A DNA stretch of 20,562 nt from a virus. Both the position numbers and the translations under genes were made by a program. Below the pieces are notes generated by a model. That model was not told the origin of the DNA. It did not search any database and saw only the letters and a list, made by a program, of their open reading frames with translations. Position 1 is the stretch's first letter; each line of letters starts with the position of its first letter. Of the stretch, positions 8,189 to 16,190 are shown piece by piece. The DNA is taken from IMG/VR virus record IMGVR_UViG_3300020140_000008, positions 1 to 20,562 of that record. One strand, given 5' to 3'.

Positions 8189-8599
8189 TTAGTCAATAAG
8201 CTCAAAATGCACTAAATCCTTAAAGCACTCATCTGTAATATCTTTGTCGCAATCCCAATCACCACCCCACCTAACAGCATGTGTGATCTTGCCATCATCT
8301 TTAAGCTTTTGTGCAAAAGCCATCACATACCCTGCAAACCAGTAAAATCCATTAATATTGCGCCAATCCAGAGGATAAGGGGACGCATCGACGGCCATGG
8401 ATGGCTGATGGTTGTGCTTACCATTAGGCCAATGCAGCTTAGTAGTTCCACTCTTAAAAGCTTTCTCTTGGTCTTCCTGATTACGATAACCCTCTAAAAT
8501 ACTACAGTCAAAATATTTAATAACTTCGTAAAACAGCGCCTGCAAATCAGGATGACACGTGGAGAGTCTCGAAAAAGATAGTTGCGAAAATGCGGGCAT
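8189..8599 (-). CDS. Endolysin, M15 L-alanyl-D-glutamate peptidase-like
   Basis: Cleaves the peptide stem of peptidoglycan at lysis. In the 136 residues, a GYRNQEDQEKAFKSG motif (37-51) precedes the zinc-binding H64-x6-D71 pair, and the third zinc ligand with general base is in DLVHFEL (D128, H131); RWGGDWD (110-116) is also typical of phage M15 enzymes. No signal peptide, consistent with holin-dependent release. It is the first gene of the late minus-strand operon. AAGGA lies about 9 bases before ATG 8599. Confidence 0.9.
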   Translation of the reverse strand: MPAFSQLSFSRLSTCHPDLQALFYEVIKYFDCSILEGYRNQEDQEKAFKSGTTKLHWPNGKHNHQPSMAVDASPYPLDWRNINGFYWFAGYVMAFAQKLKDDGKITHAVRWGGDWDCDKDITDECFKDLVHFELID

Positions 8600-8720
8600 A
8601 GTTAGCAGTCCTTATGACTTATAATCCAAATCAAAGATTAACTAGATAACAATCTGATATCAATACCCCTAGGATTCTGCATGCAAAATTAAATATATTT
8701 AAATATTTTTATTAAAAGTG

Positions 8721-8749
8721 TTGACACATAAATATAGGTGTGTTTAAAT
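8721..8749 (+). promoter_or_regulatory. Sigma70-type promoter for early plus genes
   Basis: A perfect -35 TTGACA (8721-8726), a 17-bp spacer and TTAAAT (8744-8749) form a convincing promoter, starting RNA about 25 bases upstream of the gene at 8782. It lies in the 8600-8781 gap between the late minus operon and the early plus genes. The rest of the gap is AT-rich. A minus-strand promoter for the late operon is expected there, but I see no good consensus; late promoters may need a phage activator. Confidence 0.65.
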
Positions 8750-8757
8750 ACATCATC

Positions 8758-8784
8758 ACTTAAATAAACGAGGAAATAAAAATG
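8758..8784 (+). repeat. Repeated gene leader, copy 1
   Basis: ACTTAAATAAACG, an AGGA ribosome binding site, then an A-rich spacer to the ATG. Copy 2, at 8973-8997, shares ACTTAAATAAACG and the following GGRAATAAA. A looser relative (ATAAATAAAGAGGAAATAAA) precedes the RHH gene at 12312-12331. The similarity extends beyond a ribosome binding site, suggesting leader duplication or a shared translational control element. Confidence 0.6.
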
Positions 8785-8958
8785 AAAGTACAGATACTTG
8801 AAGTAGAGAATGGCATTAGCACAGTGTTCCACACATTGACGATTGATAAGTTCATGACGATGACCAAGGCCATTGAGATATGCGCTAATCGTAACCGTCA
8901 ATTCGGTCATGAGAATAGGGCTTACATTCTTTCAACTCCAGCAGAGGTGGCGGCGTAA
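8782..8958 (+). CDS. Small hypothetical early protein
   Basis: 58 residues by hand translation, beginning MKVQILEVENGISTVFHTL and ending in a short Ala-rich tail. It has alternating beta and helix character with TIDKFMTMTKAIEICANRN as a likely helix. First gene after the TTGACA promoter, with AGGA 7 bases upstream of the ATG. No family recognised. Proteins at this position are often regulators or host-takeover factors, which is only a positional guess. Confidence 0.6.
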   Translation: MKVQILEVENGISTVFHTLTIDKFMTMTKAIEICANRNRQFGHENRAYILSTPAEVAA

Positions 8959-13495: not shown

Positions 13496-14344
13496 ATGGC
13501 GTTAAAGGCAAAAAAACCTGCAATGATTGAGCAGAGATTAAAGTGTTTGTTTTATGGTTCTGCTGGCGTCGGCAAAACGATGGCAGCAATTCAGTTCCCA
13601 AAGCCATATATCATTGATACCGAGGGCTCAACAAATAAAAGCCAGTATGTAAGCGCGATTGAAAAGGTAGATGGCGCAGTACTTGTCACCTTAGATTTTG
13701 ATGAGATGATTAATGAAGTAAGGGAGCTTTTGACAACGACTCATGATTACAAAACCCTAGTTATAGATTCTCTTACGTTGCTATACAACGACTTACTGGA
13801 AAAGGCTGAATCAAAGGTAGGCAGCGAATTTGGTCGACATTATGGTGAGGCCAATAAGCGCATGAAGCAGTTGTTAAACCTACTATTTCGTCTTGATATG
13901 AATGTGATTATAACTTCGCATAGCAAAAATGAGTACGGGCAGAATCTTTCGATACTTGGCCAAACTTTTGACTGTTATAAAAAGCTAGATTATTTGTTTG
14001 ATTTAGTATTTGAGATTCAAAAACGCGGCAAAGATAGGGTTGGGGTTATTAAGAAGTCTCGTATCGAGGGGTTTCCAGATACAGAGAGCTTTCCATTTTC
14101 CTATGATGAGATTGCAAGGAGATATGGCAGAGAGGTTCTAGAGCGTGATGCGATAGCGCAAGAGCTGGCAACGCCTGAGCAGATAAAGGAAATATTACAT
14201 TTAATCGACTTGATTAAAGTTCCTGTAGAAACGTGGCAAAAATGGCTGGACAAGACGACCTCTGATAGCTGGGATGTTATGCCAAAAGAATCAATTCAAA
14301 AGTGTATCGATCATCTTAGATCGAAAATAAAAGGAGAAGTATAA
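13496..14344 (+). CDS. Sak4-like RecA-fold ATPase (single-strand annealing)
   Basis: Phage Sak4 proteins are RecA-core ATPases that promote annealing-type recombination together with SSB. 282 residues: Walker A GSAGVGKT (21-28), an acidic DTEGS (41-45), Walker B TLVIDS (87-92) and a sensor-like VIITSHSK (137-144). The C-terminal about 60 residues form a separate helical region. ATG 13496 follows AGGA by 8 bases; ATG-less extension to 13466 would overlap the upstream gene. Adjacent to the SSB-like gene with TAATG overlap. An AAA_24-type label describes the same group. Confidence 0.86.
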   Translation: MALKAKKPAMIEQRLKCLFYGSAGVGKTMAAIQFPKPYIIDTEGSTNKSQYVSAIEKVDGAVLVTLDFDEMINEVRELLTTTHDYKTLVIDSLTLLYNDLLEKAESKVGSEFGRHYGEANKRMKQLLNLLFRLDMNVIITSHSKNEYGQNLSILGQTFDCYKKLDYLFDLVFEIQKRGKDRVGVIKKSRIEGFPDTESFPFSYDEIARRYGREVLERDAIAQELATPEQIKEILHLIDLIKVPVETWQKWLDKTTSDSWDVMPKESIQKCIDHLRSKIKGEV

Positions 14345-14805
14345 TGTCATTTTCGTACACGGCAATGAGTGAGCAGGAAGCAATGAATGAAAGATTCCAG
14401 TTACTAAAAGATGGCATCTATGATGCAGTAGTTACAACCTCTCAAGACAAAACATCAGTCAATAGCGGCAATCCGATGATGGATATGACTCTATCAGTCT
14501 ATGACAAAGAGGGCAATATACACCAAGTGCGCGACTTCCTGGTGTTTACTAAAAGTATGATGTGGAAGGTTGTGCATTGCGCAGAATCCGCAGACCTGGT
14601 GGAAATATATAATAAGCAAAAATTTTGCTCTGAGGCTATCATAGGGAAGCCTGTTAAAGTTAAAGTTACCATCGAGGAAGGCTCTATAATTCCAGAAGAT
14701 AAACTTAAGGGTAAAATGCCAGGCTCGCGTTATCCGAATAAGAATAAAATTGAAGATTATGTTAAGGGTGATGGGGCATTCGTTGATAGTGATATGCCAT
14801 TTTAG
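14344..14805 (+). CDS. DUF669-type single-stranded DNA-binding protein
   Basis: 153 residues with a beta-rich OB-fold-like body (YDAVVTTSQDK, MMDMTLSVYDKEG, GKPVKVKVTIEEG) and an acidic C-terminal tail ending DSDMPF, which mimics the D-D-[DE]-[IL]-PF tip by which bacterial SSBs recruit partners. It follows the Sak4 gene with overlapping TAATG, a pairing recurrent in phages. It would coat ssDNA during replication and recombination. Assignment combines the fold pattern, tail and neighbour. Confidence 0.82.
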   Translation: MSFSYTAMSEQEAMNERFQLLKDGIYDAVVTTSQDKTSVNSGNPMMDMTLSVYDKEGNIHQVRDFLVFTKSMMWKVVHCAESADLVEIYNKQKFCSEAIIGKPVKVKVTIEEGSIIPEDKLKGKMPGSRYPNKNKIEDYVKGDGAFVDSDMPF

Positions 14806-15413: not shown

Positions 15414-15791
15414 ATGAAATTTTGTGAAGCAATGGAGTTATTAAAAACAGGTTCAAAAGTAACGCGCCTCCCGTGGAAGGATGGGATTTATTTTCAAATA
15501 GAAGATGAGGATGTAAAATCCTTTCAGCCAAGGCTATCCCCTTTCTTGTACAACGAGGACATAATGGTCTCTGAAGGATGGTTCGTTGAAGGTATAGAAA
15601 ATGAGCTTAATTTCTGTGATATTATCCTTTTTTTATTAAAAGGGGCGCGTGCAAGAATGAAAGACTGGACAGACACATACATATTTCTAGACAACAATAC
15701 TAAGTCAATGATGATTCAATCAATGATTATATTTCCATTTACCCCAGACTTCGAGTCTTTCGTAGCTGAAGATTGGGTGGTGGTGGAATGA
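15414..15791 (+). CDS. Tandem two-domain Tad2/DUF2829-like protein
   Basis: 125 residues made of two successive DUF2829-like units. Unit 1 (1-60): F-CEAMELLKTG, R-x-PW, a YFQIEDED strand, and a closing SEGW. Unit 2 (about 65-125): F-CDIILFLLKG, R-x-x-DW, a YIFLDNN strand, and a closing AEDW. Each keeps the order F-x2-A/I-x3-LK-x-G, R-x2-W, strand, acidic-x-W. Single-domain Tad2 proteins sequester Thoeris signalling nucleotides; a fusion might pre-form the dimer that binds ligand. Unit 2 lacks the Ala in helix 1. AAGGAAG precedes ATG 15414. Family by pattern, activity by inference. Confidence 0.65.
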   Translation: MKFCEAMELLKTGSKVTRLPWKDGIYFQIEDEDVKSFQPRLSPFLYNEDIMVSEGWFVEGIENELNFCDIILFLLKGARARMKDWTDTYIFLDNNTKSMMIQSMIIFPFTPDFESFVAEDWVVVE

Positions 15792-16099
15792 CAAGGACTG
15801 CTGAAGCTATTGAAGATGAGCACATGAAGTATTTGATTGAATTGATTGGGAAGCCTACTTTAAAGTATATGATGAGACGAATACAGAATCATATACTTTG
15901 TGATGCGGACAATAAGGATATGTCGATTAACTCTTTTATCACGATCATAGTTGTATCGCTTGCAACGATTGATTCAAACTTCTTGAGGTGGATTCAGAGT
16001 TTCTACAAAGAGAAAGTTGGCGAGGATATAGATTTTGATAAGCTTCGATTTTCACTTGCTAAGAATGTAAATGAGCAATTGGGTATTGAGGTGCATTAA
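15788..16099 (+). CDS. Hypothetical protein upstream of tRNA
   Basis: 103 residues, largely helical, with KYLIELIGKPTLKYMM and a hydrophobic stretch FITIIVVSLATID (about 55-67), possibly a buried helix or one TM segment. ATG 15788 overlaps the stop of the tandem Tad2-like gene (ATGA) and has GGTGG upstream, so the two are probably expressed together. Not recognised; it may be a functional partner of the Tad2-like protein. Confidence 0.65.
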   Translation: MTRTAEAIEDEHMKYLIELIGKPTLKYMMRRIQNHILCDADNKDMSINSFITIIVVSLATIDSNFLRWIQSFYKEKVGEDIDFDKLRFSLAKNVNEQLGIEVH

Positions 16100-16106
16100 C
16101 AAGACT

Positions 16107-16190
16107 TCTGCGGTAGCTCAGTTGGTAGAGCGTCAGCTTAGAGCCACGCATGTTAGCGTGAGGTCGTAGGTTCGATTCCTACCCGCAGAA
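16107..16190 (+). tRNA. Atypical tRNA, anticodon uncertain (possibly Asn-GTT)
   Basis: 84 bases. The acceptor TCTGCGG/CCGCAGA pairs perfectly (extendable by T-A), the D arm is GCTC-AGTTGGTA-GAGC, and the T arm is GTAGG-TTCGATT-CCTAC. The AGGTC variable loop is canonical for a class I tRNA. Between the D arm and this loop there are 12-13 extra bases. The best anticodon stem is CACGC/GCGTG (16144-16159) closing a 6-base loop ATGTTA that would present GTT; a normal 7-base loop cannot be drawn. TAGAGC occurs twice 13 bases apart, hinting at a small duplication. CCA is not encoded. It may be degenerate or specialised. Confidence 0.7.

Follow-up and report, generated by a model that had tools for sequence, protein, structure and literature searches.

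Two fused, diverged Tad2-like domains in a viral protein family, predicted to fold as an interlaced pseudo-dimer

The window analyzed here, the whole of a 20,562-base IMG/VR virus record, encodes a small protein that, judged by its sequence, is two fused Tad2-like domains (D1 and D2) that have diverged from each other (Table 1). The domains are homologous, their tree is compatible with a single fusion, and the gene is widespread, under purifying selection and accessory. Our leading explanation, which in our judgment could equally well prove right or wrong, is that this tandem protein is an interlaced covalent pseudo-dimer, fused once, that acts as a counter-defense sponge with a ligand other than gcADPR.

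Table 1. Coordinates of the tandem gene, its predicted parts and neighboring features in the window
Feature	Position	Strand	Evidence and remarks
Single-domain Tad2-like gene, ~90 aa	1468..1743	-	PF11195 E 2.4e-8
AAA_24 ATPase, conserved upstream anchor	13496..14344	+	PF13479 E 1.4e-24; syntenic in most orthologous loci reaching that far
DUF669 protein, conserved upstream anchor	14344..14805	+	PF05037 E 3.7e-6; syntenic
Tandem Tad2-like protein	15414..15791	+	125 aa; PF11195 E 9.3e-11, two stretches; 44 orthologous loci; purifying selection
Tad2-like domain 1 (D1), residues 1-60, S-E-G-W end	15414..15593	+	six-frame PF11195 match
D1 N-half (D1-N), residues ~1-38, predicted first part of canonical Tad2 unit	15414..15527	+	structure match range and chimera scoring; crossover approximate
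Tad2-like domain 2 (D2), residues 65-125, A-E-D-W end	15606..15788	+	six-frame PF11195 match
D2 C-half (D2-C), residues ~104-125, predicted second part of canonical Tad2 unit	15723..15788	+	structure match range and chimera scoring; solved Tad2 C-termini align here (phmmer/hmmsearch)
ATGA-overlapping ORF, 103 aa, not a conserved partner	15788..16099	+	no significant family match

The tandem open reading frame runs from an ATG at 15414 to a TGA at 15789-15791, and its whole product matched PF11195 (Tad2-like, formerly DUF2829) with 42.6 bits, above the Pfam-A cut-off of 25. A six-frame search with the same model found the halves separately (15414-15551, E 7.2e-7; 15609-15785, E 7.7e-5), and when scored by themselves, half 1 reached 26.4 bits (1e-5) and half 2 reached 21.2 bits (4.4e-4), the latter under the cut-off of 25. 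These matches bear out a preliminary description of this DNA, made from its letters, in which two successive DUF2829-type copies had been recognized, the first ending in GW and the second in DW. The difference in endings is real: across the family, G occupies residue 55 in 26/30 and D occupies residue 120 in 30/30 non-redundant orthologues. Profile-profile comparison of the family's D1 and D2 (residues 1-60 and 65-125 in the window protein) gave a probability of 96.5 and an E of 9e-10, indicating that the halves are homologous. All 30 non-redundant orthologues also matched PF11195 (E<=0.001), and a chance match to the Tad2 profile is ruled out by the PF11195 scores, the homology between halves and this agreement among members. 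Neither PADLOC nor NCBIfam gave a match to the tandem protein.

Three scans of viral contigs recovered full-length orthologues in at least 44 viral loci, 124-134 aa in length and 30-65% identical to the window protein, and more divergent further members lie beside related AAA_24 genes; one of these lies on a contig of 34 kb that had been assigned to a Planctomycetota MAG. Named phages held no full-length match to the tandem protein, and a first scan of genome contigs found no relative. The closest genome contigs belong to MAGs of Planctomycetota, Nitrospirae and Legionellales and are possibly binning accidents. Among close pairs of orthologues the median dN/dS is ~0.10, with low values in D1 and D2 alike, which indicates purifying selection; with the frame kept in 44 loci, this rules out a frameshift, an assembly artefact or a pseudogene. 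By mean pairwise identity, D1 is somewhat more conserved than D2 (0.55 vs 0.47).

Every member carries the two domains in one chain. In a domain tree of 70 columns with many unresolved inner forks, all D1 sequences fall in one clade and all D2 sequences in another (98/97 and 100/100 support), and this sequence-based topology fits a single ancient fusion predating diversification of the family. The preliminary description had overlooked a single-domain Tad2-like gene in the same window, counterparts of which, with a conserved NPNAGNYIF or APNAGNYIF stretch, are found in four 34-kb relatives; since the tandem and single-domain genes are both present, the window phage and these four relatives have three Tad2-like domains in two genes. 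D1 groups weakly with the single-domain copies (84/87) in the 70-column tree. An origin of the tandem gene by recent duplication of the single-domain gene in this window is unsupported, as D1 and D2 each form one clade across members.

As far as the literature searched shows, this is a fused form of the Tad2-like family that has apparently gone unremarked; our search, of incomplete coverage, found no paper describing a fused Tad2 pair. Same-chain Tad2 tandems were likewise absent from 80 canonical Tad2 loci, a non-random sample made up of the best matches to two patterns, outside which lie the longer Tad2-like proteins of BFVD (147-270 aa). Two named phages offer partial parallels. In phage SpaA1, P60 and P61 (L179, 1259-1764) are adjacent DUF2829 genes with a one-base overlap that encode separate polypeptides, an arrangement that, by analogy, might be how an unfused ancestor of the tandem protein looked. 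In Pasteurella phage Pmp13, XYO02325 (L092, 7-564) is, like the tandem protein, a fusion, but its Tad2 domain stands behind Phage_gp49_66 (PF13876), another domain, rather than a second Tad2.

For the window protein, AlphaFold returned a pLDDT of 88.2 and a pTM of 0.64 from a 14-sequence alignment, its five models spreading over 62-88, and for the orthologue in locus L088, which is 44% identical, it returned 95.6 and 0.77 from a 30-sequence alignment, all five models lying at 93-96. Both proteins contain a helix-strand-strand-strand-helix-strand unit twice, represented in the window model by H3-11, E16-18, E26-30, E33-43, H48-51 and E56-58 in D1 and by H67-75, E79-82, E89-93, E98-108, H113-117 and E121-123 in D2. 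When the best Foldseek chains were re-aligned, Tad2 or AcrIIA7 structures filled the first ten PDB places for both models (Z 9.9-11.2, 60-63 residues, rmsd 1.2-1.7 Å), and the entry that followed had a Z of ~5 for both. The tandem protein, which is predicted to have a Tad2 fold in an interlaced arrangement, thus superposes as a model on solved Tad2 structures. The aligned range of the models extends from residue 1 to the C-terminus, yet comprises ~61 residues, aligned to chains of 74-104 residues, so the Tad2 unit in the models is made up of the start of D1 and the end of D2. Foldseek matches covering 36 columns at ~1 Å suggest that the first lobe takes in the modeled chain up to about residue 36, the exit lying within the long strand 33-43; we infer a crossover at ~36-43, because the structure matches give the ends of ranges only and not residue pairs.

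In these models, D1 and D2 appear to be an interlaced pseudo-dimer and not beads on a string. Two domains fused once, long ago, would now be folded round each other, such that the first half of D1 and the second half of D2 would build one lobe, a Tad2 unit close to the canonical one, and the remaining halves, the first of D2 and the second of D1, would build a diverged unit. The covalent pseudo-dimer envisaged in the preliminary description therefore stands insofar as two diverged Tad2-like domains are fused and probably form a pseudo-dimer, but not as a pair of independent beads, both AlphaFold models being interlaced. AlphaFold can mispair the halves of duplicated domains, and two separate, self-contained Tad2-like beads with a linker between them, the interlacing being an artefact, would be the simplest result of a tandem duplication. 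We consider this unlikely: the same outcome was reached from two orthologues of 44% identity, the second with five high-confidence models, and, independently of the models, D1-N is matched with D2-C both by sequence profiles and by alignments to solved Tad2 chains.

If the canonical unit consists of D1-N and D2-C, these halves are expected to be the most Tad2-like, and this is what was observed when chimeric sequences were scored. Against the Pfam model, the window chimera D1-N+D2-C scored 34.0 bits, compared with 26.4 for D1 and 21.2 for D2, and the reciprocal chimera had no match. With an HMM of 11 phage Tad2s, D1-N+D2-C was best in 28/30 members and the reciprocal worst in 27/30; an HMM of 75 canonical sequences gave a weaker result in the same direction (best in 22/30, reciprocal worst in 21/30), and as the 30 members share ancestry, these counts make up one lineage-level observation, not 30 independent ones. 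Solved Tad2 sequences align in the same manner, the Tad2 N-terminus onto D1 and the C-terminus, weakly, onto D2.

The solved structures also set out what the tandem protein shares with characterized Tad2s. SPO1 Tad2 (Gp34.65; PDB 8SME, 8SMF, 8SMG and 8WJE), an anti-type I Thoeris sponge, has PF11195 in common with it, along with ~61 residues that superpose at 1.2-1.7 Å and the order of helix, central strands, short helix and D-W end. Unlike the tandem protein, which has two short domains per chain and lacks the motifs, SPO1 Tad2 is a single-domain protein of 89 aa, homotetrameric (PMC12043709), that has both WNG and W..S..D as well as a long insertion. ModTad2 of a Myroides prophage (PDB 9EIB and 8V3E), which binds His-ADPR, has the same fold as the tandem models and is the best sequence match to the family profile among solved structures (E 3e-4), but is single-domain, and the canonical Tad2 pocket motifs were not found in the tandem family. 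AcrIIA7/HgmTad2 (PDB 8KBI-8KBM), solved with cADPR and cGG and named 'Inhibitor of Type II CRISPR-Cas system' in the deposition, likewise has the same fold (Z 10-11) but is single-domain with a longer insertion; in the models, the likeness to this anti-CRISPR is one of fold only.

Known Tad2s are homotetramers that capture the Thoeris signals gcADPR or His-ADPR and the cyclic dinucleotides of CBASS, in a pocket to which loops beta1-beta2 and beta4-alpha3 contribute together with helix alpha3 (PMC12043709; PMC13299392). By our own mapping, from the order of secondary-structure elements, WNG and W..S..D would fall in the pocket-forming loops. These motifs occur in 0/30 non-redundant tandem members; they occur in 74/75 canonical Tad2s, a biased figure, because the patterns used to retrieve that set overlap the motifs, and in 10/11 phage Tad2s, nearly all of them found by similarity to SPO1 Tad2. 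The tandem domains, at ~60 residues each, are also without most of the Tad2 beta2-beta5 insertion, which is said to bind cyclic dinucleotides. With the predicted fold present but the motifs and most of the insertion gone, the known ligands are not to be assumed; gcADPR binding cannot be claimed, and nor can the widened or split ligand specificity suggested in the preliminary description. An ordinary Tad2 sponge in fused form, capturing established Thoeris or CBASS signals (gcADPR, His-ADPR, cyclic dinucleotides), would agree with the structural match of the models to Tad2 in complex with these ligands (Z 10-11) and with the A-x-D-W end of D2, kept in 30/30 members, but the loss from all members of the motifs of the pocket-forming loops (PMC12043709) and of most of the insertion makes such a protein quite improbable.

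We infer instead a sponge whose ligand has changed, and with it a counter-defense role and an oligomeric state. During infection, the tandem protein would act stoichiometrically, sequestering a nucleotide-type immune signal other than gcADPR, which would be held in pockets between the lobes or between two chains, as in the Tad2 tetramer. The main rival to a changed-ligand sponge is a protein-binding role, in which the Tad2 fold has been repurposed, for example to bind a host or phage protein as an inhibitor or as a helper of AAA_24 or DUF669. Loss of the pocket motifs, the steady place of the gene near the AAA_24 and DUF669 genes and strong purifying selection, not arms-race divergence, all speak for such a role. 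The genomic context makes it somewhat unlikely nonetheless: 18/56 relatives have AAA_24 and a DUF669-like gene but not the tandem gene, which these two thus do not require, and no partner gene is conserved directly adjoining.

In most orthologous loci that extend that far, the tandem gene sits 3' of the AAA_24 and DUF669 genes. Among the 56 AAA_24-anchored loci, defined as those with ~3 kb or more downstream, it is present in 38, and the 18 from which it is missing have other small ORFs in the variable stretch that follows the DUF669-like gene. Because of these absences the tandem gene is accessory, and a core replication gene is unlikely; patchy occurrence in a variable stretch is what would be expected of an accessory counter-defense gene. 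The preliminary description had correctly noted the ATGA overlap of the tandem ORF with the ORF at 15788, which is exactly as described, and had put forward the latter as a possible partner. A homologue of that ORF lies directly 3' of the tandem gene in only 6/44 orthologous loci, which rules out a dedicated partnership of the two as a general rule; across the 44 loci, no conserved partner directly adjoins the tandem gene.

A new sponge subclass, in which an asymmetric interlaced Tad2 pseudo-dimer with a rebuilt pocket captures an immune signal outside the range of all known sponges, seems to us improbable, but if true would point to an undescribed signaling defense in the hosts. Sponge proteins reveal which alarm molecules bacteria use, and a conserved, fused, asymmetric Tad2 family without the known pocket motifs offers a concrete set of proteins for a ligand screen, as well as a test of sponge evolution by domain fusion.

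Several minor observations concern the surroundings of Tad2-like genes. Just past the tandem operon, the window carries a tRNA gene at 16107-16190 (+; Rfam 52.7 bits) whose anticodon loop ARAGORN could not assign (four-base 'taga') and which could be degenerate or unusual; of 18 related loci scanned, 17 yielded no tRNA. Serine recombinase/resolvase-like genes, recognized by eye, lie in the variable region of two relatives (L102, ~8260-8840; L005, 4855-5409). In Aeromonas phage Ahp1_CNU-2021 (L097, 283-519), a canonical Tad2-like gene adjoins a nicotinamide phosphoribosyltransferase gene, a pair that could possibly combine signal capture with NAD replenishment. The terminase encoded in the window shows a distant resemblance, at 36-40% identity, to its counterparts in Pelagibacter phage Hodr, Burkholderia phage BcepC6B and Methylophilales phage MEP301.
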